A stretch of 64,000 nt of DNA from Terriglobia bacterium (lineage in GTDB: Bacteria > Acidobacteriota > Terriglobia > Terriglobales > Acidobacteriaceae). Shown one piece after another: positions 1-56,795 of this stretch. The stretch covers positions 1-64,000 of the forward strand of contig JAIQET010000013.1 of assembly GCA_020073645.1 (NCBI GenBank), in the 5' to 3' direction. The notes beneath the pieces are model-generated. The model was not told where the DNA came from. It made no database searches and was given only the letters and a program-made list of their open reading frames with translations. Position numbers and translations under genes: made by a program. Numbering within the stretch: the stretch's first letter is position 1; every line of letters starts with the position of its first letter.

Positions 1-145
1 GTTGAGCCAGCCCAGCAGCGCGATCACCGCGACGATCGATGGCGGCATTCTGGGCATTGTGCGAAGCGCAGTAGCTGTCCCCAGCGGCGTTGCACACGAC
101 TACGGCGACCATGAACTTGAGCGCCTTCGGCACTTCGGGGAGGTC
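1..145 (-). pseudogene. possible remnant of an AhpD/carboxymuconolactone-decarboxylase-like gene
   Basis: The minus frame is open from the window edge up to an in-frame TGA at 146-148. Its translation contains a hydrophobic stretch followed by YCASHNAQNA, which resembles the Cys-x-x-His region of AhpD-like peroxidase-related proteins. There is no start codon with a ribosome binding site, and the frame is closed by stops on its 5' side, so it looks like a decayed fragment. The resemblance is short and could be chance. Nothing else convincing is coded in bases 1-319. Confidence 0.22.
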
Positions 146-2089: not shown

Positions 2090-3304
2090 CTACGTCATCC
2101 GCTGTTGCTGCGCCGCCAGCGCTCGGTTTCTGATGCGCGCGAGGACAAATGCCAGCATGATACCGACCACGCATGCGACGCTGATGCCGACAAAGCCCCA
2201 GGTGAACGTTCCCGCCCTGTCTTTCACTACGCCGAGAGCGTAGGCGAACGTCAGGGCGCCGATGTTGGCGAAGAGATTGCTGAACCCGGTGGACATGCCC
2301 GCGATACGCAGGCCGAGCACCTCGACGGGCACAAAGAACAGAGCGCCAAAATAGAACTGCAGGAACATCGAGTTAATTGCGATCACGACGAGCAGCAGCG
2401 GGATCGAATGTACGAGCACCAGCAGTGTCGAAGTGCAGGCGATAACGGCCAATGATCCGCCGATCACCAGCGGCGGATTTCTCAGGCGGTCCGACACGTA
2501 GCCGCCCATTACGTTCGACAGTACCGTAAAGGCAGCGCCCATCGCGACAACGAAGCCCGCCTCCTGAATTGAGAGTCCGCGGTCTGCCACCAGCAGGGAC
2601 GGCAACCAGAAATTGATCCCGACCACGACGCCCAACCGAATGAATTGGATGGCGCCGCATACCCACATGATCTCGTACTTGAACAACCGGAACGCATCGA
2701 GCATACCCACCCGTTGCCGGGACCCCTCGCGGGGTTTTTCTTTGCCAAACGCCAGATACAGAAGCGCGGCGCCTATTCCCGCGATCGAAAAGAACACAAT
2801 CGTAAACCGCCAGCCATATTGGTTCACCAGCAGCGGGCCAACCAGGGACAGGAAGATGTTGCCGGAGAAGCCGCCCACCACGTAGAGGCCCATGGCCGTG
2901 GCCCTGCGCTCCGGCGGGAACCACGAAGCAAGCAGTGCGAGGCCAGGCGCGAACATCAACGCCCGGAACACTCCTGTGACAAGCTGGTTGATTACCGCGA
3001 ATTGGAACGTATGGATAAGGCCGAAGTTGAGCGACAGCAGGGTTGAACCCAGGATGCCAATGAAGAACAGGCGCTTGGGACCGAACCGGTCCGAGAGGAA
3101 ACCCGCCGGAATCTGCCCGAGCGCATAGGTCAACGTCGAGGCGGCGGACAGCATTCCGGCCTGCGCGAAGTTCATCTGCAAGTCGGCGCGAATCAACGGC
3201 AGGAAGAGCGCTATACCGCCGAAAGTCAGCGCGGGGGTGTGCTGCGCAATCACCAGGCAGGAGAACAAGACCAGCGACAGAAACAGGACGCTGCGCAATT
3301 TCAT
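2090..3304 (-). CDS. MFS transporter
   Basis: This 404-residue major facilitator superfamily protein has a typical motif A (GFLSDRFGPKRLFF) after the second membrane helix and the usual two six-helix halves. I chose the ATG at 3304, which gives an N-terminus MKLRSVLFLSLV; the upstream extension is not plausible as protein. Organisation suggests the anion:cation symporter/hexuronate-like branch, but the substrate is not identifiable. It is transcribed towards the preceding MFS gene and divergently from the foldase gene. Confidence 0.8.
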   Translation of the reverse strand: MKLRSVLFLSLVLFSCLVIAQHTPALTFGGIALFLPLIRADLQMNFAQAGMLSAASTLTYALGQIPAGFLSDRFGPKRLFFIGILGSTLLSLNFGLIHTFQFAVINQLVTGVFRALMFAPGLALLASWFPPERRATAMGLYVVGGFSGNIFLSLVGPLLVNQYGWRFTIVFFSIAGIGAALLYLAFGKEKPREGSRQRVGMLDAFRLFKYEIMWVCGAIQFIRLGVVVGINFWLPSLLVADRGLSIQEAGFVVAMGAAFTVLSNVMGGYVSDRLRNPPLVIGGSLAVIACTSTLLVLVHSIPLLLVVIAINSMFLQFYFGALFFVPVEVLGLRIAGMSTGFSNLFANIGALTFAYALGVVKDRAGTFTWGFVGISVACVVGIMLAFVLARIRNRALAAQQQRMT

Positions 3305-3623
3305 GAGGAGACCCTGTGGCGAAAAGTAAGAATGCAATGGCGCTCCATTATGCCGCACCGGGGCTGAGGATGGGGTTCGAGGGCATACCAAGAAGCTTAA
3401 TAACACGTTTTAATGATACGTTTCAATGTACCGGGCTTGGCCTTGGGAAATCGCGCTGCAGCCGGGACCAGCTCCCGGTTCACAGTGGTCCGGCTTCTCC
3501 TCTTGCAGATTGCGATCTTTGCGGTGGCCAGCGCGACCCTTCGACTGCGCTCAGGGCAGGCTCTGGCGCTGCTGCCTGGTTTATAATCATCAATTCTGCC
3601 GTATATCCTGGAGTGACAAGAAG
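3305..3623. other. divergent intergenic region
   Basis: This 319-base gap lies between the divergent MFS and foldase genes. It contains one copy of palindromic repeat family A at 3536-3563. A TATAAT hexamer at 3582-3587, about 36 bases before the foldase start, could be its -10 box; I do not see a convincing -35. No coding signal was found. Confidence 0.5.
3536..3563. repeat. palindromic repeat family A, copy A1
   Basis: The core CCTTCGACTGCGCTCAGG matches other family A copies in the window (near 12977, 13346, 13495 and 35903). It sits in the leader of the foldase gene. Confidence 0.7.
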
Positions 3624-5612
3624 ATGATTCGATTTCTGCAAACCCCTGGGCCCCTGAAGAAGATTATTCTCGGAGGGCTGCTGCTGATTATTTGTGCGGC
3701 CATGGTGATCACGCTGGTGCCCGGCGGGGTCGGCTCGAGCTTCGGTTTTGGCGCCCCAGGACGCGGGGTGGTGGCCAACGTGGCCGGTGAGGAAGTGACC
3801 ACGGTCGAGGTGCAGCGGGAGGCCCGGCAGATGCTGCGCCAGCAGTTTCCCCGGGGCAGTGCCATGGCGGCGCAATTGCTCCCCTTCTTTGCCAGCCGCG
3901 CAGCCGAGGAACTGATCACCCAGAAGGCGGTGCTGGCGGAAGCCGACCGCCTGGGTCTGCATGTGAGCGACGAAGAGCTGCGGGATGAGTTGCAACATGG
4001 CCGCTACGCCGCGGCCTTCTTCCCCGGCGGCACTTTCATTGGCGAGGACGCGTACGAGGCCAGGATCCAGCAGGCCGACATGACCGTGCCGCAATTCGAG
4101 CAAGGAGTGAAGGAGCAGATCCTTTTCGACAAGCTGCGCAACCTGGTGGCGGGCAGCGCCTTTGTGACCGACGCCGAAATCCGCCAGGAATTCGTACGCC
4201 GCAACACCCAGGTCAAGTTTGACTACGCCGTACTGCGCAAAGAAGACATTGCCAAGGAAATCCACCCCAGCGATCCTGAACTGAAGGCGTACTACGACAG
4301 CCACCTGGCCAACTACAACAACTCCATTCCCGAGAAGCGTAAAGTCCAGTATGTCCTGATCGACACGGCGAAGCTCCAGTCAGAGGTCCAGGTCACACGC
4401 GAAGATTTGCAGGCGTATTACGATCAGCACCGTGACGAGTATCGTCTACCCGAGCAGGTGAATGTGCGGCAGATCCTGATCAAGACCCCTCTGCCCGGTG
4501 CCGATGGGAAGGTGGACCAGAAGGGTGTTGACGAGGCTCGTGGCAAAGCCGAAGACGCCCTCAAGCAGCTCAAGGCGGGGGCGAGCTTCGAAGACCTGGC
4601 CAAGAAGTACTCCGAAGATCCCAGCGGCAAGACTGGCGGCTCGATCGGGTGGATTCGCCGCGGCGGCTTTCCGGTTCCTGAGGTGGACACGGCTGCGTTT
4701 TCCTTGCCCAAGGGCGGGACTAGCGACGTAATCAACGCGGGCTATGCATTCGTCATTCTTCACATCGATGACCGTCAGCCGGCTCACATGAAGACGCTGG
4801 AAGAGGTCAAGGACCAGATCGAACCCGCCATCAAGCGGGAGAAGGCTTCGCGCGCCGCTGACGCGGCGGCCAGCAGCTTGCTCAGCCAGGCCCGTGCCAA
4901 CGGTCTTGACAAGGCGGCTGCTGCCAAAGGGATGACGGTCGTGAACACCGACTTCATCAGCCGCGGCGACGCGCTGCCCGGGATTGGTCCCTCCCCGGCC
5001 TTCATGGATGCAGTGTTCAATGCGCGAGAGAAGGCGCCGCCGGATGAAGCGCAGTTGCCGCAGGGCTTTGCGGTGTTCCAGGTGCTGGCGGTCAAGCCTC
5101 CGGCCACGCCTACGTTCGAAGAAATCCGCAGCCAGGTGGAGACGCAGTTCAAGAACGAACGCACCACCGCTCTGCTTACCCAGAAGACGCAGGAGCTTTC
5201 CGACCGCGCCAAGGCCGGGCATGACCTGAAGAAAGCGGCCAAGGAACTGGGCGCGACCATGAAGACCAGCGATTTCGTGCTGCCTGACGGGCAGGTGCCC
5301 GATATCGGCTCGATGGGGGGCGCCGCGTCAGGGGCGTTTTCCATGAAACCGGGCGAGATCAGCGGGCCTATCGACAATGGCAATACCGGCGCGGTACTGC
5401 AAATCCTGGAGAAGCAGGATCCGTCGGACCAGGACTTTGCCGCGAAGAAGGACCAGATTCGCGATTCGCTGCTGCAGAACAAGCAGGGGGAATTGTTCAA
5501 TCTGTTCGTGGCCAACCTGCGGGACCAGATGCAGAAGGCCGGGAAGATCAAGATCAACCAGGAAGAGATGAAAGGTCTGACCCGCGGCCAGGGCAGCGAA
5601 GAGGGCGAGTAA
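3624..5612 (+). CDS. SurA/PpiD-like peptidyl-prolyl isomerase
   Basis: This 662-residue periplasmic folding factor is anchored by one N-terminal membrane helix (about residues 14-31), as in PpiD. An N-terminal SurA-type chaperone region is followed by one clear parvulin domain at about 278-382, which carries GGSIGWIRRGGFPVPE and the FSLPKGGTSDVI stretch. The C-terminal half looks like a second, degenerate chaperone/parvulin region. The start is the ATG at 3624, preceded by GGAG; an in-frame upstream extension runs through a repeat and is not credible. It probably assists outer-membrane protein folding. It stands alone, with malQ 121 bases downstream. Confidence 0.85.
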   Translation: MIRFLQTPGPLKKIILGGLLLIICAAMVITLVPGGVGSSFGFGAPGRGVVANVAGEEVTTVEVQREARQMLRQQFPRGSAMAAQLLPFFASRAAEELITQKAVLAEADRLGLHVSDEELRDELQHGRYAAAFFPGGTFIGEDAYEARIQQADMTVPQFEQGVKEQILFDKLRNLVAGSAFVTDAEIRQEFVRRNTQVKFDYAVLRKEDIAKEIHPSDPELKAYYDSHLANYNNSIPEKRKVQYVLIDTAKLQSEVQVTREDLQAYYDQHRDEYRLPEQVNVRQILIKTPLPGADGKVDQKGVDEARGKAEDALKQLKAGASFEDLAKKYSEDPSGKTGGSIGWIRRGGFPVPEVDTAAFSLPKGGTSDVINAGYAFVILHIDDRQPAHMKTLEEVKDQIEPAIKREKASRAADAAASSLLSQARANGLDKAAAAKGMTVVNTDFISRGDALPGIGPSPAFMDAVFNAREKAPPDEAQLPQGFAVFQVLAVKPPATPTFEEIRSQVETQFKNERTTALLTQKTQELSDRAKAGHDLKKAAKELGATMKTSDFVLPDGQVPDIGSMGGAASGAFSMKPGEISGPIDNGNTGAVLQILEKQDPSDQDFAAKKDQIRDSLLQNKQGELFNLFVANLRDQMQKAGKIKINQEEMKGLTRGQGSEEGE

Positions 5613-5733
5613 CGCCAGGGTATTGCGGGGGAGGCATCCAGGTCCCCGGCCCATAGTTTTTCTCTGTGTTGTTCCTCACGGGCAGAGTCAGAGAGGAGTT
5701 CCCATTAACGCTCAGCCATCATAAGAAAGAACC

Positions 5734-7266
5734 ATGGTTTTTCCCCGCGCGACAGGAATTTTGCTGCATCCGATCTCACTGCCGTCGCGTGGCGGCATCG
5801 GGGATTTTGGCCCGGCGGCTTATGAGTTCGTAGATTTCCTGGCCAGCGCTCGCCAGGGTTTGTGGCAGGTCCTTCCCCTGGGCCCGCCTGCGGCTGGAAA
5901 TTCTCCCTACTCCTCGACCTCGGCATTTGCCGGCAATCCGTTGCTCATCAGCCTGGAGCGTTTGGCAGAGCGTGGCTGGATCGAGCCCGCGCAGTTCACG
6001 GGTCCGCCGGAGCACGTGGGCATGATCGACTACGACGAGGTGAGCCGTCACAAGCTGCCGCTGCTGGCCCAGGCCGCGCGCAATTTCCTGGAGCATGCTC
6101 CTGCCGCGGCACGCGGCCGCTTTGACCGCTTCTGCAGCGACAACGCCTGGTGGTTGGAGGATTTTGTCCTCTTTGATGCCTTGCGCGAGCGCTGCAACGG
6201 CCAAGTCTGGAAGCACTGGCCACGGGACCTGGCCCGCCGCGAGGCGACGGCGCTGGAGGCCGTGCGCCGGGAGCTGGCATCGGAAATGGCGCTGCGCCGT
6301 GTGATCCAGTTTGCCTTCTGGGAGCAGTGGCGGGCCTTGCATCGCTACTGTGCGCAGAAGTCTATTCGCGTGGTCGGCGACATCGCCATTTTTGTGGACT
6401 ACGACAGCGCCGATGTCTGGAGGTGTCGCGATCTCTACCGCTTGAGAGACGACCTTGAGCCCGAGGTGGTTTCCGGAGTGCCTCCCGACGCGTTCAGCGC
6501 CACCGGCCAGCGTTGGGGCAATCCGCTCTACAACTGGGACGCCATGCGCGCCCGCGGCTACGAGTGGTGGATCCAGCGCCTGCGCTGGGCCACGCAAACC
6601 TGCGACTACATCCGTCTCGACCACTTTCGCGGATTCGATCAGTTCTGGGAGATTCCTGCCCACGAGCCTACGGCAATGAACGGACGCTGGGCGGATGGGC
6701 CCAAGGACGACCTCTTCAACCAGGTTCGCGACGCCCTGGGCGGGCTGCCGTTCTTTGCCGAAGACCTGGGCTACATCACGCCCGAGGTGCACGCCCTGCG
6801 GGAGCGCCATCACATTCCCGGGATGGCGGTGCTGCAGTTTGGCTTCAGCAATCCGGGCGCACACGTCTATTTGCCGCATCGGCTTACACCCGACCGGGTG
6901 GTGTACACCGGCACCCATGACAACGACACCACGCTCGGTTGGTGGAACTCGGGCGTGAGCGAAGAGGAGCGTCGTGCCGTGCGGAATTATGTGGGAGCCT
7001 GCGAAGATGGGATCAACTGGGGTTTGATTCGCCTGGCCCAAGGCTCGGTGGCCAGCCTGTCAGTGGTTCCATTGCAGGATGTGCTGGGGCTGGGCAGCGA
7101 AGCCCGCCTGAATGTCCCCAGCGTGAAGGATGGTAATTATCGCTGGCGATTCCAGCCCGGAGCCCTCAAGCCAGAATTGGCACAGCGTCTGGCAATCTTG
7201 GCTGAGGTCACGGATCGGCTGCCACCGCCGGTGCCGGAGCGGCCACAAGAAGACTTCGCGGCATAG
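5734..7266 (+). CDS. malQ: 4-alpha-glucanotransferase (amylomaltase, GH77)
   Basis: This 510-residue cytosolic enzyme transfers 1,4-alpha-glucan segments between maltodextrins. Family GH77 hallmarks are visible. The N-terminus carries GILLHPISLPS and WQVLPLGPPAAGNSPYSS. The nucleophile region is IRLDHFRGF at about 290-298, the acid/base region is FFAEDLGYI near 340, and the stabilising aspartate lies in TGTHDNDT near 391-398. Length matches the family (about 500). It suggests glycogen or maltodextrin turnover; no glycogen gene is adjacent. Confidence 0.95.
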   Translation: MVFPRATGILLHPISLPSRGGIGDFGPAAYEFVDFLASARQGLWQVLPLGPPAAGNSPYSSTSAFAGNPLLISLERLAERGWIEPAQFTGPPEHVGMIDYDEVSRHKLPLLAQAARNFLEHAPAAARGRFDRFCSDNAWWLEDFVLFDALRERCNGQVWKHWPRDLARREATALEAVRRELASEMALRRVIQFAFWEQWRALHRYCAQKSIRVVGDIAIFVDYDSADVWRCRDLYRLRDDLEPEVVSGVPPDAFSATGQRWGNPLYNWDAMRARGYEWWIQRLRWATQTCDYIRLDHFRGFDQFWEIPAHEPTAMNGRWADGPKDDLFNQVRDALGGLPFFAEDLGYITPEVHALRERHHIPGMAVLQFGFSNPGAHVYLPHRLTPDRVVYTGTHDNDTTLGWWNSGVSEEERRAVRNYVGACEDGINWGLIRLAQGSVASLSVVPLQDVLGLGSEARLNVPSVKDGNYRWRFQPGALKPELAQRLAILAEVTDRLPPPVPERPQEDFAA

Positions 7267-7276
7267 TCTGGTGGTT

Positions 7277-7305
7277 GTGTTTCTCCGTGCCTCTGAGTCT
7301 CCGTG
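7277..7305. repeat. octad word array (CTCYGWGN), copy D1
   Basis: Three consecutive 8-base units beginning CTCCGTGC share the reverse-complement consensus of arrays D2, D3 and D4 (CACAGAGN). It lies just after the malQ stop. Confidence 0.6.
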
Positions 7306-7321
7306 ATGAAGCCTCCGGCCA

Positions 7322-7351
7322 AGAAAAAGCCGGGATCCGAAGACCCCGGCT
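7322..7351 (-). terminator. rho-independent terminator for the XRE regulator gene
   Basis: Read on the minus strand, the stem AGCCGGG pairs with CCCGGCT (7328-7334 with 7345-7351) and is followed by a TTTTTCTT tract. It lies about 95 bases after the stop of the gene at 7447-7986. Confidence 0.75.
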
Positions 7352-7446
7352 GCAGTTGGCTGGTTGCCCGGATAAAACTTGTGTGCACGCGGGCGCTCTC
7401 GCCCACGCAGCCTCTAACGAACCTATCGGCGGCGCGCTCCGCGACT

Positions 7447-7986
7447 TTACGCGCTGCGTCGCGGCCGTACGGTCAAGTCCCGCACCTGCGCCAGGATGCT
7501 CGACATCTGCAAGCCGTTCAGTTGCGAGAGGAAGGGCATCAGCTCGGCGATAAACGGGTCCTGCAGCAGTTCGCGGACTTCCTCCTGGCGGCTGCGTTCG
7601 CCGCCCGAGAGCAGTTCAGGCACGGTCACCTCCAGTGCCCGCGCCAGCCGCTCCAGCGAGGAGAGGGTGGGCGTGGCCTTCTCGTTTTCGATCTTGGACA
7701 CGTAGGTGCGCGGCACCGACATACGGGCGGCCAGTTGCCGCTGGCTAAGCCCGTTGCGCAGGCGCAACGAACGGATGGATGCAGCCAGGTTCAGGTGCCC
7801 GCGCCCATTGCCGTTCGAGGGCGCCACTGGTGGCAGTGGCAGAGTTGCGACAATTTCCGGCTCGTCCTCGTCTAATGAGCCATGGCAGCGGCGGCAAAGG
7901 TTGTTGGTGGTACGGAATTGGACCAGCAGGCAGCGGTCGCAACGAACGACTTCCCTGGAATCAACCGGGGCAAGGGTCGTGGCCAT
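7447..7986 (-). CDS. XRE-family transcriptional regulator with N-terminal zinc ribbon
   Basis: This 179-residue protein has two CxxC pairs at its N-terminus (CDRC near residue 16 and CRRC about 15 residues later), which look like a zinc ribbon. A linker follows, then a helix-turn-helix of the XRE/HTH_3 type (LRNGLSQRQLAARMSVPRTY, then SKIENEKATPTL). A C-terminal helical tail may oligomerise. The ribbon plus HTH arrangement is less common than a lone HTH. It is convergent with malQ and has its own terminator. The target is unknown. Confidence 0.8.
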   Translation of the reverse strand: MATTLAPVDSREVVRCDRCLLVQFRTTNNLCRRCHGSLDEDEPEIVATLPLPPVAPSNGNGRGHLNLAASIRSLRLRNGLSQRQLAARMSVPRTYVSKIENEKATPTLSSLERLARALEVTVPELLSGGERSRQEEVRELLQDPFIAELMPFLSQLNGLQMSSILAQVRDLTVRPRRSA

Positions 7987-8167
7987 TTAGGTTTGGGAGT
8001 TGCCAGAGCGGAGGCTACTCCGGAACCGGGGGATATGTTCCAATCTCCACGGTAATCTGCGCGACAACACCTGTGGATGTCAAGCAAAATCTGGGGTGAA
8101 ACGCGAAATATCTTGTGGGAAAGCCAAAACAAAAGGGCGAAAACCAGGAGAAAACAGGTAAGAAACC

Positions 8168-8746
8168 ATGAATGAGCGCGAAGCGGCGTGGGGTTTACTA
8201 ACTGAGTTCACCCAATCGGAAAGTTTGCGCAAACACGCGCTGGCGGTGGAGGCATGCATGCGCGCCTACGCCCGCAAACTGGGCGGAGACGAGAACCTGT
8301 GGGGCGTGGTGGGATTGATCCACGACTTCGACTACGAGAAGTGGCCCAGCCCGGAGGAGCACCCGTACAAGGGAAACGAAATCCTGAAGGAGCGCGGGTA
8401 CTCGGACGAAATCCGCCGCGCCATCATGTCGCATGCCGAGTACTCCGGCGTACCGCGGGAGACTCCCATGGAAAAGGCCCTGTTCGCCTGCGACGAGCTG
8501 GCGGGATTCATCACGGCCTGCGCGCTGGTGAAGCCAGGGAAGTCGCTAGCCGAAGTCGAGGCCAAGTCGGTGCGAAGAAAGATGAAAGACAAAGCGTTTG
8601 CGCGGAGCGTGAATCGGGAAGATATTGTGAACGGAGCGGCGGAGCTGGGGGTGGAGTTGGAGGAGCACATCGCGTTCTGCATTGAGGCGATGAAGGGAGT
8701 GGCGAGGGAGTTGGGGTTGGATGGGAGTGGGGCGAAGACTTCGTAG
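8168..8746 (+). CDS. HD-domain hydrolase
   Basis: This 192-residue protein is of the HD/HDIG type. The metal-binding HD lies in GLIHDFDYEKW (about residue 50), with further histidines in the EEHPYKGNE and MSHAEYSG segments and an aspartate in ACDELAGFITA. This matches the small HD phosphohydrolases often annotated as hydrolase or phosphodiesterase. The substrate is not known. The ribosome binding site AGGAG lies in an A-rich leader that stands out from the GC-rich surroundings. Confidence 0.8.
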   Translation: MNEREAAWGLLTEFTQSESLRKHALAVEACMRAYARKLGGDENLWGVVGLIHDFDYEKWPSPEEHPYKGNEILKERGYSDEIRRAIMSHAEYSGVPRETPMEKALFACDELAGFITACALVKPGKSLAEVEAKSVRRKMKDKAFARSVNREDIVNGAAELGVELEEHIAFCIEAMKGVARELGLDGSGAKTS

Positions 8747-8765
8747 AGAAGGCGGTCTCCGGGAC

Positions 8766-51880: not shown

Positions 51881-52023
51881 AGTCGCTGGTCGTCGGTCGC
51901 CAGTCGTTGGCCAAGACCGCTCCAAACTGTGGCGCCACTGAGTGGTAAACCGCAAACTAGCGTCCGCGAACTGAAGTCGGCGTTGGCTAGCGACTAACGA
52001 CCAACGACTAACGACTAACGACG
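51881..52023. repeat. mirrored heptad-word palindrome, H6
   Basis: Four units RGTCGYY (51881-51908) and five units AACGACT-like (51989-52023) are reverse complements. The arms are separated by about 80 bases. The right arm ends 11 bases before the mreC start, and no clear ribosome binding site is left there. Confidence 0.85.
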
Positions 52024-53370: not shown

Positions 53371-53889
53371 GTGCCCATCACTTACACATCGCAGGAGCAG
53401 GTGGAGGTCTACCGGTTCAGTATTCCGGCGGCGATCCTCATTCCCCTGATCGCGGTCTTTTTGCAGGCCTTCGTGCCGTTGAAGCTGGCCTTCTTCTCCA
53501 TCTTCGACTTGCCGCTGCTGGTAGTGATTTTCTTCGCCGTGGCCCGGCGCAGCCAGGTGACGGGACTGCTGACCGGGGCCGCCATCGGCCTGCTTCAGGA
53601 CTCGCTCACCCACCAGCCGATCGGCGTCTACGGCATCGCCAAGACCGTGGTGGGGTACGGCGCATCCTCACTGGGCGTAAAGCTGGACGTGGAGAACGCT
53701 GGCTCCCGCTTCCTGGTGACGCTGTTTTTTTATATCGTTCACGAAATTGTGTATTTCCTGGTGGCCCGCGGGCTGGTGGGGTTAACGCTGCAGTGGAGCT
53801 GGCTGCACGAGTTGGGGTCTGCCCTGGCGAATGCCCTGTTGGCGGTGGCCTTGTTTGCCCTGCTGGACCGGTTCAAGCAGCGGACGTGA
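53371..53889 (+). CDS. mreD: rod shape-determining protein MreD
   Basis: This 172-residue inner-membrane protein has about five to six hydrophobic segments. Its pattern (LTGAAIGLLQDSLTHQPIGVYG) is typical of MreD. It starts with GTG one base after the mreC stop, so it is tightly coupled. Its stop is followed within a few bases by heptad array H7a. Confidence 0.9.
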   Translation: MPITYTSQEQVEVYRFSIPAAILIPLIAVFLQAFVPLKLAFFSIFDLPLLVVIFFAVARRSQVTGLLTGAAIGLLQDSLTHQPIGVYGIAKTVVGYGASSLGVKLDVENAGSRFLVTLFFYIVHEIVYFLVARGLVGLTLQWSWLHELGSALANALLAVALFALLDRFKQRT

Positions 53890-53893
53890 AGGC

Positions 53894-53921
53894 AGGTCTC
53901 AGGCGTCAAGCCTCAGGTGGC
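53894..53921. repeat. heptad word array, left arm H7a
   Basis: Four units (AGGTCTC, AGGCGTC, AAGCCTC, AGGTGGC) follow mreD. The complementary arm is H7b, 770 bases away, on the other side of the PilZ gene. Confidence 0.75.
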
Positions 53922-54285
53922 AGGGCCCGCGAGGACTATCTAGTCCTGGAGCCGGGTTCGCGCTTACAGCTGCTATCTCTCGCCCCAAGCACTCCTTCCA
54001 GGGGCACTCCTCGTTCTTGAGCTTGTGCACGGCGACCTGGATCTTGCGATCAGTGCCCGAATCGCGCAGCCACACCACGCGAAAGCGGGCTTTGCGGTCG
54101 CCGTAAGCGACGCCGATCAGATCACCGGTTCTCAGATGCTGCTCAATCCCGCATAGCAGTGCTCCACTGACGCTGATGTTGCGAGCGACAGCGTCTTGCA
54201 CAAAGAGTGCGCCTTGGGCATCGATGCCCCAGACGCGCACGGCAAGATCGGCTTGGGTTCGCGGCTCTTTCCGACTCTGCTTCAT
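53899..54285 (-). CDS. PilZ-domain protein
   Basis: This 128-residue protein begins KQSRKEPRTQADLAVRVWG and has NISVSGALLCG and LIGVAYGDRKARFRVVW. These are the RxxxR-like and D/NxSxxG parts of a PilZ c-di-GMP-binding domain. It is encoded antisense inside the cell-shape operon, between mreD and mrdA. The C-terminal residues and stop are encoded by heptad array H7a. Binding competence cannot be judged from sequence alone. Confidence 0.75.
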   Translation of the reverse strand: MKQSRKEPRTQADLAVRVWGIDAQGALFVQDAVARNISVSGALLCGIEQHLRTGDLIGVAYGDRKARFRVVWLRDSGTDRKIQVAVHKLKNEECPWKECLGREIAAVSANPAPGLDSPRGPCHLRLDA

Positions 54286-54690
54286 GGACACCGTTAGTGG
54301 CTCGAAGAAAAGCGATGTGGGACTCCCTGATTATCCGAAAGCCGATCGAGAGACTCTGTGATGTGGCCCGCTTTTTCGCAAGCGAAGGTAACCCAAGCAG
54401 AATTACAGGAGTCATCGTTCGGTCACACTGGAGGGGAGGGGATGCCGGGTGCCCTGGCCGGCCCGGGAGAAGCCTGGCCCAGGATGAATCGCGGACTGTG
54501 GCAAGGGCGCTGGGAGGCAACCGGTGGCACCCGCCAATGGGATCTTCTGGTCGGCGTCTCCCGGCGTCTATGCCCTTCCGTCACTGAAGACACAATCCCC
54601 CTCACCAACTCGAAGGGTTACAATACAGTTAACTTCCCGAAAGGACTGCCTGGCCGTGGGAATCCACCGCTGCAATGTATCGCCAAGGGC
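54286..54690. other. non-coding stretch before mrdA
   Basis: About 400 bases between the PilZ start and arm H7b. A GC hairpin-rich stretch (for example CGCTTTTTCGCAAGCG at about 54370) is present. I see no credible gene, and none of the riboswitch signatures I know. Confidence 0.4.
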
Positions 54691-54718
54691 TGACGCCCGG
54701 GGCCTGAGGTCCGACGTC
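54691..54718. repeat. heptad word array, right arm H7b
   Basis: Units TGACGCC, CGGGGCC, TGAGGTC, CGACGTC end 3 bases before the mrdA ATG and are complementary in type to H7a. Confidence 0.7.
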
Positions 54719-54720
54719 TA

Positions 54721-56688
54721 ATGTTTGGCCGTGACGAAAAAGTATCGCCCATCCGCCTGACCGCGGTGCAGTACATCGTCCTGGGCATCTTCCTCATTCT
54801 GGCTTACGGACTGTGGCGGCTGCAGGTGGCGCAGAGCGACATGTACGCCACGCTGGCGGAAAAGAACCGCATTCGCAACGTGCCCATCCTGGCGCCGCGC
54901 GGCAAGATTCTTGATCGCGAAGGCCGCACCATCGTCGACAACTATCCCTCGTTCACGGCGCTGCTGTTGCGCGACTCCTCGCGTGATCTCGCGGGCGATG
55001 CCGATCTCATTGCACAAGGCCTGCACCTGGATGCGAAAGAGGTGCGGGAACGCATCCGGAAGTTCGCCTCCATGCCGCAATACCAGCCGATCTATCTCAA
55101 AGACGACATCACGCCGGATGAACTGGCGTTTATCGAAGCCCACCGCAACGAGTTGCCGGAGTTGGACACCATCATGGCGCACCGCCGCCTGTATCCGCGC
55201 AACGGATTTATGGCCCACCTGGTTGGCTACGTGGGCGAGGTCAGCGAGGAAATGCTCAACTCGCCGCGGTGGGAGCTGTACAACCCGGGAGATGTGGTGG
55301 GGCAGTCGGGAGTGGAACAGGAGTACAACCAGATCCTGATGGGCAAGAACGGATTCCGGCGCGCGGTGGTGAACAGCCACGGCAAAGAAGTCGGACGGTT
55401 GGATGAAACCCCCGCGGAACCCGGCCGGCAACTCAAGCTCACGGTAGACATCGATCTGCAAATCGCCGCCGAGCAGGCGTTGGAAGGGAAGAACGGAGCG
55501 ATTGTCGCGATGGACCCGCGGACGGGCGAAATCCTGGCCATGGTGAGCCGCCCGGCCTTCGATCCCAACGATTTCGCGGTGCGCATCTCGCGTGAAGAAT
55601 GGACCAAGCTGGTCAACGACGAGAACCATCCATTGCTGAACAAGGCCATTCAGGCACAGCTGGCGCCGGGCTCGGTGTTCAAGATCATCATGGCCACCGC
55701 AGGCCTGCAGGAAGGCATCGCGCAGACCATGCACGTGACCTGCAATGGGGGCGCGGTGTTTTACGGACGTTATTTCAAGTGTTGGGTAACAGCGGAGCAT
55801 CGCGTCCACGGCCTGGTGGATATCCGCAAGGCGATTTACCAGTCGTGCGACGTATTCTTTTACACCCTCGCGGAAAAGCTGGGCATCGATCGCATCGCCA
55901 AGTACGCGATCATGTTGGGACTGGGGCAGAGGACGGGGATCGATCTGCCGCAGGAGGTCACTGGAGTGATGCCTTCGGAGGAATGGAAAATCCGTAACTT
56001 CAAGCAGAAGTGGTACGCGGGAGAAACCATTTCGGTCGGCATCGGACAGGGCGCGGTCGCCACCACACCCATTCAGTTGGCGCGCGCCATCGGCGGGATT
56101 GCCAGCGGGGGCGTGTTGCGCCGTCCGCATGTCGCGTTCCCCGATCTATTGCCCGCCAACATTCGGCCCGTCTCGGACGGGTTGGGCGAAGTGAACATCG
56201 GGCTCGATCCCAGCAACTGGGAATTGATCACCGATGCCATGGCTGCGGTGGTGAACCCCGGGGGAACCGCTCCCAGCGCGCACCTGCAAGGCATCGATTT
56301 TGCTGGCAAGACCGGCAGCGCGCAGACCATCAGCAATGTGGCCAAGGCCCGGCTGGCGAACGGGAAATCGAAGTTCAAGGACAACGGCTGGTTTGTGGGA
56401 GTGGAGCCCCGACGCAACCCGGAGATCGTCGTGTGCACCCTGCTCGAAGAAGGCGAGCACGGATACCTGGCGGCGCGCGCGACTGCGCAGGTGATCAAGG
56501 CATACGTGGACAAAGAGCGCCGGCAACCGACCAAGGTCGCCCGCAGCGACGGCAAAGTGGACGTGGGCGCGGTGTGGAATGTTTCCGACGAAGACGATGG
56601 CCACGAAACGGTGCGCGGCGGACACTTCCTAATAAACGTTTCCAAGAAGCGCTTGCCGCTGGCGACAGCTGCGCCGGGAGTGAATTAA
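54721..56688 (+). CDS. mrdA: penicillin-binding protein 2
   Basis: This 655-residue class B transpeptidase of the elongasome has an N-terminal membrane helix and a pedestal domain (APRGKILDREGRTIVDNYPS). The transpeptidase domain has S318 in APGSVFKI, the SxN-position motif as SCD in YQSCDVFFY, and KTG at 530-532 (FAGKTGSAQT). It crosslinks peptidoglycan together with RodA. The heptad arm directly upstream leaves little room for a ribosome binding site. Confidence 0.95.
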   Translation: MFGRDEKVSPIRLTAVQYIVLGIFLILAYGLWRLQVAQSDMYATLAEKNRIRNVPILAPRGKILDREGRTIVDNYPSFTALLLRDSSRDLAGDADLIAQGLHLDAKEVRERIRKFASMPQYQPIYLKDDITPDELAFIEAHRNELPELDTIMAHRRLYPRNGFMAHLVGYVGEVSEEMLNSPRWELYNPGDVVGQSGVEQEYNQILMGKNGFRRAVVNSHGKEVGRLDETPAEPGRQLKLTVDIDLQIAAEQALEGKNGAIVAMDPRTGEILAMVSRPAFDPNDFAVRISREEWTKLVNDENHPLLNKAIQAQLAPGSVFKIIMATAGLQEGIAQTMHVTCNGGAVFYGRYFKCWVTAEHRVHGLVDIRKAIYQSCDVFFYTLAEKLGIDRIAKYAIMLGLGQRTGIDLPQEVTGVMPSEEWKIRNFKQKWYAGETISVGIGQGAVATTPIQLARAIGGIASGGVLRRPHVAFPDLLPANIRPVSDGLGEVNIGLDPSNWELITDAMAAVVNPGGTAPSAHLQGIDFAGKTGSAQTISNVAKARLANGKSKFKDNGWFVGVEPRRNPEIVVCTLLEEGEHGYLAARATAQVIKAYVDKERRQPTKVARSDGKVDVGAVWNVSDEDDGHETVRGGHFLINVSKKRLPLATAAPGVN

Positions 56689-56737: not shown

Positions 56738-56765
56738 GACAGATTGTTGAACGAACGAGGAAAGC

Positions 56766-56793
56766 TAACGACCGACGACCGACGACCGACGAC
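56766..56793. repeat. single-arm heptad word array, H8
   Basis: TAACGAC followed by three identical CGACGAC units ends 2 bases before the rodA ATG (56796), where a ribosome binding site would normally lie. Confidence 0.8.
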
Positions 56794-56795
56794 TG

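Follow-up and report, generated by a model that had tools for sequence, protein, structure and literature searches.

Genes and sequence elements at the mreD-mrdA junction

The 64,000-nucleotide stretch of DNA analysed here (the window), part of the draft genome of a soil acidobacterium, carries a cell-shape gene cluster whose Pfam matches give the order mreB-mreC-mreD-mrdA(PBP2)-rodA. Between mreD and mrdA lie two arrays of seven-base words (heptad arms), a PilZ-like gene on the opposite strand and a promoter-like region. The features are listed below, together with two other heptad loci of the same cluster that serve for comparison.

53371-53889, plus strand: mreD, the upstream junction gene (PF04093, E 1.3e-9)
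53893-53928, plus strand: heptad arm H7a, with the words AGGTCTC AGGCGTC AAGCCTC AGGTGGC
53899-54291, minus strand: PilZ-like gene (RKEPR and NISVSG motifs; PF07238 match below the cut-off; homologue alignment; dN/dS)
53930-54564, no strand: DNA absent from short-junction relatives (body of the PilZ-like gene and the region upstream of it); limits approximate, set by eye
54565-54584, plus strand: block CGTCTATGCCCTTCCGTCAC, similar to blocks that precede mrdA in relatives (GTGAC-N4-GTCAC in some of them)
54619-54624, plus strand: TACAAT box (-10-like), lying 102 nt before mrdA begins
54684-54719, plus strand: heptad arm H7b, of complementary type, abutting the mrdA start (TAATG)
54721-56688, plus strand: mrdA (PBP2), the downstream junction gene (PF00905, PF03717)
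51881-52022, plus strand, for comparison: mreB-mreC heptad pair of GTCGTTA-type words (fully GTTTCGA-type in G049, the genus mate of the window genome)
56763-56795, plus strand, for comparison: heptad array of CGACGAC type before rodA; no partner found in the window

The original prediction placed one array just after the mreD stop and an array of complementary type just before the mrdA start, and both are indeed present. Specifically, H7a starts 3 nt past the last base of mreD (53889), and the PilZ-like ORF runs into it with its 3′ end. Its lag-7 self-match of 16/27 (53895-53928) is reached by 0/5000 shuffles, and that of H7b is 15/26 (54687-54719; p 0.002). The two arms also share one word type, as predicted: CAGGTCTCAGGCGTCAAGCCT in H7a matches the reverse complement of H7b at 16 of 21 bases with a spacing of 772, the complementary cores lying at 53893-53913 and 54686-54706. 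Taken alone, this complementarity is weak, being equalled by 0.015 of shuffles, by 0.022 of random window segments with the spacing kept, and by 0.096 of cross-genome arm pairs. Tandem Repeats Finder at score 30 lists neither array. The arms of the window are real but weak, and their credibility comes from comparison with relatives.

An antisense PilZ gene had been proposed between the arms. The minus-strand ORF exists, but the PilZ assignment is sub-threshold, and the final codons and stop of the ORF lie inside H7a (the ORF of G049 stops earlier). PF07238 matches the window protein with E 0.014 and 16.2 bits, which is below the Pfam gathering threshold of 22.5. The RxxxR and [DN]xSxxG sequences are the c-di-GMP motifs of the PilZ domain, and the window protein resembles PilZ domain proteins in carrying motifs of both types (RKEPR and NISVSG), with R7, R11, N38, S40 and G43 invariant in the three junction proteins described below. 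In an alignment of 15 homologues that includes the window protein, eight of the others match PilZ at E<=0.01, the strongest at 4.8e-5. It further differs from PilZ domain proteins in that a profile search of the PDB matched no PilZ chain. NCBIfam gives no PilZ match for any of the three junction proteins. An AlphaFold model, built from 3 sequences only, has a mean pLDDT of 43.6, and neither it nor the profile search confirms the PilZ fold. The protein is 75% identical to its counterpart in G049 and 59% identical to that in a third genome, G077. Between the window and G049, whose PBP2 proteins are 95% identical, dN/dS is 0.23 for the PilZ-like gene, 0.03 for mreD and 0.06 for mrdA; the PilZ-like gene is thus under purifying selection. 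Homologues are common in the family (68/200 genomes at E<=1e-15), where they reside elsewhere in the genomes.

At the far end of the spacer, an ORF at 54524-54721, considered as a leader peptide, ends in a TAATG overlap at the mrdA start. Of the 82 junctions compared below, TG precedes the start codon (a TGATG overlap, at positions corresponding to 54719-54723) in 29, and TA precedes it in four, the window included.

The junction in relatives and the history of the insert

PBP2 was found in 186 of 200 family genomes. The junction was viewed in about 80 of these, beginning with the nearest PBP2, such that distant genomes are under-represented, and further named records were added. The comparison covers 82 distinct mreD-mrdA junctions of at least 70 bp. 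Left out were shorter junctions (e.g. L020, L022, L024, L083, L088, L100, L101), duplicates, loci with no mreD in the ~1.7 kb covered upstream (L077, L086, L089, L094, L095, L096, L099, L102, L105), and eight loci in which mreD is not upstream (L035, L036, L037, L038, L041, L042, L045, L048). In the last eight, mreD is absent from the ~4-10 kb upstream of mrdA, and mrdA has apparently moved out of the mre cluster or been separated from it.

Most junctions are short, with 62 of the 82 measuring 100-400 bp and 14 measuring at least 600 bp. In many of the short junctions, heptad arms sit flush against the mreD stop and the mrdA start with a TACAAT box between them and no PilZ-like gene. Thus, the short, armed and PilZ-free junction that the original prediction expected in related genomes was found. 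The PilZ-like gene is present at this position in only three junctions: those of the window, G049 and G077. In a tree of MreC, MreD and PBP2, where an overlap between two sets of loci makes certain genomes occur twice, these three genomes group with a support of 0.945 and are nested among PilZ-less relatives. A tree of PBP2 alone does not group them, joining the window with G049 (1.0) and G077 with G045, with a support of 0.64 at the node between. Since the three form one clade among PilZ-less relatives with short junctions, the PilZ-like gene is a derived insertion into an armed spacer, a reading that is well supported by these comparisons, and it was most simply gained once.

Other genes occupy the same junction in other lineages. 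Examples are a PIN-domain protein accompanied by a small partner in G177, a similar pair in G092 that by eye is VapBC-like, a HigB toxin and its HTH partner in G186, a di-haem oxidoreductase in G109 and a GIY-YIG protein in G024. Such unrelated inserts often lie in junctions without detectable arms. The junction is thus a site at which genes can settle.

The element that persists through these changes is the TACAAT box. It occurs in 43 of the 82 junctions (shuffles: 2.65), and its distance from mrdA is similar in most of them; 10 of the 14 long junctions retain a TACAAT-like box no more than 330 nt from mrdA. A GTGAC-type block upstream of mrdA is found in 25 of the 82 junctions, compared with 0.2 in shuffles. 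In 15 junctions, and in no shuffles, the block upstream of the box is the palindrome GTGAC-N3to5-GT[CT]AC, which resembles a Crp/Fnr-type site; the window (54565-54584) has only its right half. A scan with the sigma-70 consensus found no promoter. We infer that the TACAAT box is mrdA's own promoter, and the eight genomes in which mreD does not adjoin mrdA are consistent with mrdA being able to stand alone.

These observations alter two parts of the original prediction. About 400 non-coding bases had been noted, and a stretch of this kind does lie between the PilZ-like ORF and H7b, but it is not empty, holding both the TACAAT box and the GTGAC-type block. The proposal that a c-di-GMP receptor had been placed in the elongasome operon is not borne out: the PilZ-like ORF runs convergently towards mreD, from which 9 bases separate it, and diverges from mrdA, which keeps its promoter-like box. 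A role for the PilZ-like gene as an operon member, as a gene linked to the elongasome or as a c-di-GMP receptor is not supported by the sequence comparisons.

In a separate part of the window, a 5.5-kb segment (3231-8757), whose ORFs were judged by eye to be SurA-like, MalQ-like, HTH and HD-like, is 98% identical to G049, while most other aligned blocks are 80-91% identical. This segment looks like the product of a recent transfer or recombination.

Complementary heptad arms as a class

Across the 82 junctions, the two edges of the mreD-mrdA spacer are more complementary to each other within a genome (23.65) than across genomes (14.51), a difference reached by 0/20,000 permutations, although this test overstates independence in that related genomes have words in common and independent replacements are far fewer than 82. 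Inner control segments give 11.0 within and 10.8 across genomes. The lag-7 match is 0.39 and 0.43 in the arms versus 0.25 inside the spacer, so the period is confined to the edges. The same within-genome match is observed at mreB-mreC (49 genomes; 0/20,000 permutations) and, more weakly, at mrdA-rodA (33 genomes; 16/20,000 permutations). In armed junctions of the three operon spacers, the distance from the stop to the first base of the upstream arm has a median of 3 nt, and the distance from the last base of the downstream arm to the start has a median of 5 nt.

The spacing of the arms had been described as 15-80 bases elsewhere. This range roughly fits the other pairs of the window (11-68) but not the mreD-mrdA junction of relatives, where the median is 133 (5th-95th percentile 78-189; 32 armed junctions) because the promoter-like box lies between the arms.

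The words themselves change wholesale, even between members of one genus. Between the window and G049, they differ at both mreB-mreC and mrdA-rodA despite flanking coding DNA that is 86-91% identical; around mrdA-rodA, G049 carries CTAGGCT-type arms that match each other. H7b is nearly unchanged between the two genomes, while the words at the other two spacers have been replaced. Genus g7 has at least four arm word classes in seven genomes around a similar promoter core. Among the 20 pairs of armed junctions with the most similar loops, cross-complementarity (30.2) nearly equals that of the junctions with themselves (36.5).

Such arrays are not restricted to the cell-shape cluster. A 398.5-kb sample of the window genome has 36 lag-7 arrays, of which 27 are non-coding, compared with six in shuffled DNA, and 11 of those 27 are matched by a complementary array at a level exceeding the 99th percentile of controls. 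Three genome samples of ~0.4 Mb each contain 31-41 arrays versus 1-5 in shuffled DNA. Arrays are rarer in divergent spacers, which hold 7 of the 77 spacer-assigned arrays (1/27, 5/26 and 1/24, the five being those of G049) yet make up 158 of the 782 spacers of at least 20 bases; convergent spacers hold 15 of the 77. Genes in these surveys were called by a simple ORF picker, and distances to starts are therefore rough.

Other designs are also seen. The mreB-mreC spacers of L044 and L167 have another inverted repeat, with TTGTCATCACGAGCG-type arms and no 7-base period, and the mreD-mrdA junction of L052 has arms built of an 8-base word (AGTCTGTC).

Origin of the arms and comparison with known systems

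The history that best fits these data would begin with a short ancestral spacer that had the mrdA promoter-like box in the middle and complementary arms of 7-base period at the edges, forming a quasi-palindrome. The ancestor of the window genome, G049 and a third species would then have acquired a PilZ-like gene, oriented against its neighbours, in the stretch that separates the upstream arm from the promoter box. This site presumably tolerates inserts because mrdA has its own promoter, and other genes have settled there in other lineages. Arm complementarity may be kept while words change through copying between the arms at the DNA level (template switching). Slippage of 7-base units could spread a variant along a tandem array and, combined with template switching, rewrite both arms. 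A large insert would slow this copying, such that H7a and H7b could be a frozen, eroding pair. We give this account as a whole a probability of roughly 0.6.

Could the two arrays instead be low-complexity sequence that arose by chance and is mutually unrelated? Each is degenerate, and they pair weakly in the window genome, as such an origin would predict. However, the lag-7 periodicity of each exceeds that of shuffles, and clear matching arms stand at the same position in many relatives, including the PilZ-bearing G077 (score 30), making coincidence very improbable. Still harder to credit is that the arms form the termini of a cassette system, mobile or recombinogenic, that brought in the PilZ-like gene as cargo, even though both this gene and the VapBC-like pair of G092 sit between matching arms. 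Many relatives have arms but no cargo (at score 26, 28 of the 62 junctions between 100 and 400 bp), inserts are also found in junctions without detectable arms, and the PilZ-like ORF overlaps H7a instead of ending inside the arms. Furthermore, the ten insert ORFs scanned include no recombinase or transposase, the only candidate being a GIY-YIG domain in an armless junction. Because arms occupy the edges of the spacer, any insert will fall between them, and bracketing needs no recombination by the arms. Of the original proposal that a cassette entered the loop of a heptad palindrome, one half therefore stands, namely that a PilZ-like gene entered an armed junction, whereas a part for the arms in its capture is not supported. 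The edge position of the arms, the armed junctions that are empty and the inserts without arms all count against insertion mediated by the heptads, a reading that we reject. Rather than mobilising the PilZ-like gene, the arms would bracket it simply by occupying the spacer edges.

A different possibility is that selection maintains the arms because they form an RNA stem in mRNA that reads through the junction, bringing the mreD stop near the mrdA start and thereby coupling or insulating the two genes, and that this stem is absent from transcripts made from the internal promoter. The placement of arms within a few bases of stop and start, the stop-start overlap (TG|ATG) at the end of 29 of the 82 junctions and the rarity of arrays in divergent spacers (7/77) all speak for such a stem. 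A stem formed by the sense-strand RNA would tolerate GU mismatches and avoid AC mismatches, whereas a process acting on DNA predicts that the two are equal. In 54 armed junctions, GU-type and AC-type mismatches are about equally frequent (93 and 80; p 0.36), which favours DNA-level copying over selection of an RNA stem. Moreover, arrays are found in convergent spacers, where coupling would be senseless, and there is no Rfam match: the scan returned only a sub-threshold 2dG-II match (E 0.16) that we take as chance. On balance, selection for an RNA stem seems unlikely. Regardless, DNA copying accounts neither for the edge position nor for the scarcity of arrays in divergent spacers, two features that may point to a connection with transcription or translation, and it also leaves the choice of seven bases unexplained.

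Within the account based on DNA copying, the near constancy of H7b between the window and G049, against new words at the other two spacers, fits freezing by the insert. Arms scoring at least 26 occur in 1 of the 14 long junctions and in 28 of the 62 junctions of 100-400 bp (p 0.013), a contrast that comes from a tiny sample and depends on a threshold chosen afterwards (p 0.15, 0.038 and 0.013 at scores of 22, 24 and 26). The same contrast may arise if inserts prefer unarmed junctions. The arms of G077 still match well (score 30) across 3 kb, which counts against freezing.

More tentatively, Terriglobales may carry a class of self-renewing intergenic quasi-palindromes, placed flush with gene edges at orthologous positions in many species, in which both arms are rewritten together by DNA copying, the position being kept while the words are not, and in which an insert freezes the word. 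We consider the heptad arms to be a larger result than the PilZ-like insertion, and they deserve their own study. When two pairing arms change in step, this is normally taken to prove that an RNA structure is under selection. Heptad loci could offer a natural experiment on whether covariation can be mimicked by DNA copying on its own, because the arms match within genomes and differ between them, yet their GU and AC mismatches betray no preference for the RNA strand. Likewise, the inserts at mreD-mrdA, the PilZ-like gene among them, offer a way to ask whether the distance between arms stops rewriting.

Searches of an open-access library, in which most subscription journals are missing, brought to light neither paired heptad arms in Acidobacteria nor a PilZ gene in an mre operon. 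The closest system they yielded is that of the TAACTGA heptamers, direct repeats of Beggiatoaceae, some Cyanobacteria and Bacteroidetes that use one fixed word and in many cases lie just upstream of start codons (MacGregor, 2015; PMC4679880). Both are tandem intergenic repeats of 7 bases, and near-identical words such as TAACTGC occur among the arrays studied here (L208). However, the TAACTGA repeats have one word, no partner array and no predicted structure, whereas the Terriglobales arms employ many words per genome, form complementary pairs at both spacer edges and are replaced between species (PMC4679880).

Template-switch mutation creates and repairs the inverted repeats of quasi-palindromes, altering several bases at once (Monttinen and Loytynoja, 2022; PMC8794818). 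The heptad arms resemble such quasi-palindromes in that their arms change together and their mismatches are strand-symmetric, and the same mechanism is proposed for them here. Unlike the heptad arms, those quasi-palindromes are not built of 7-base units in tandem, nor do they keep to a set place beside genes (PMC8794818). The GTAG- and CGTC-tagged REP elements are likewise short intergenic palindromes present in many copies per genome, and they form one-sequence families, each with a 4-base tag (PMC3733652). Whereas a REP family has one sequence, heptad words vary by locus and by species, and the arms have only their arrangement in common.
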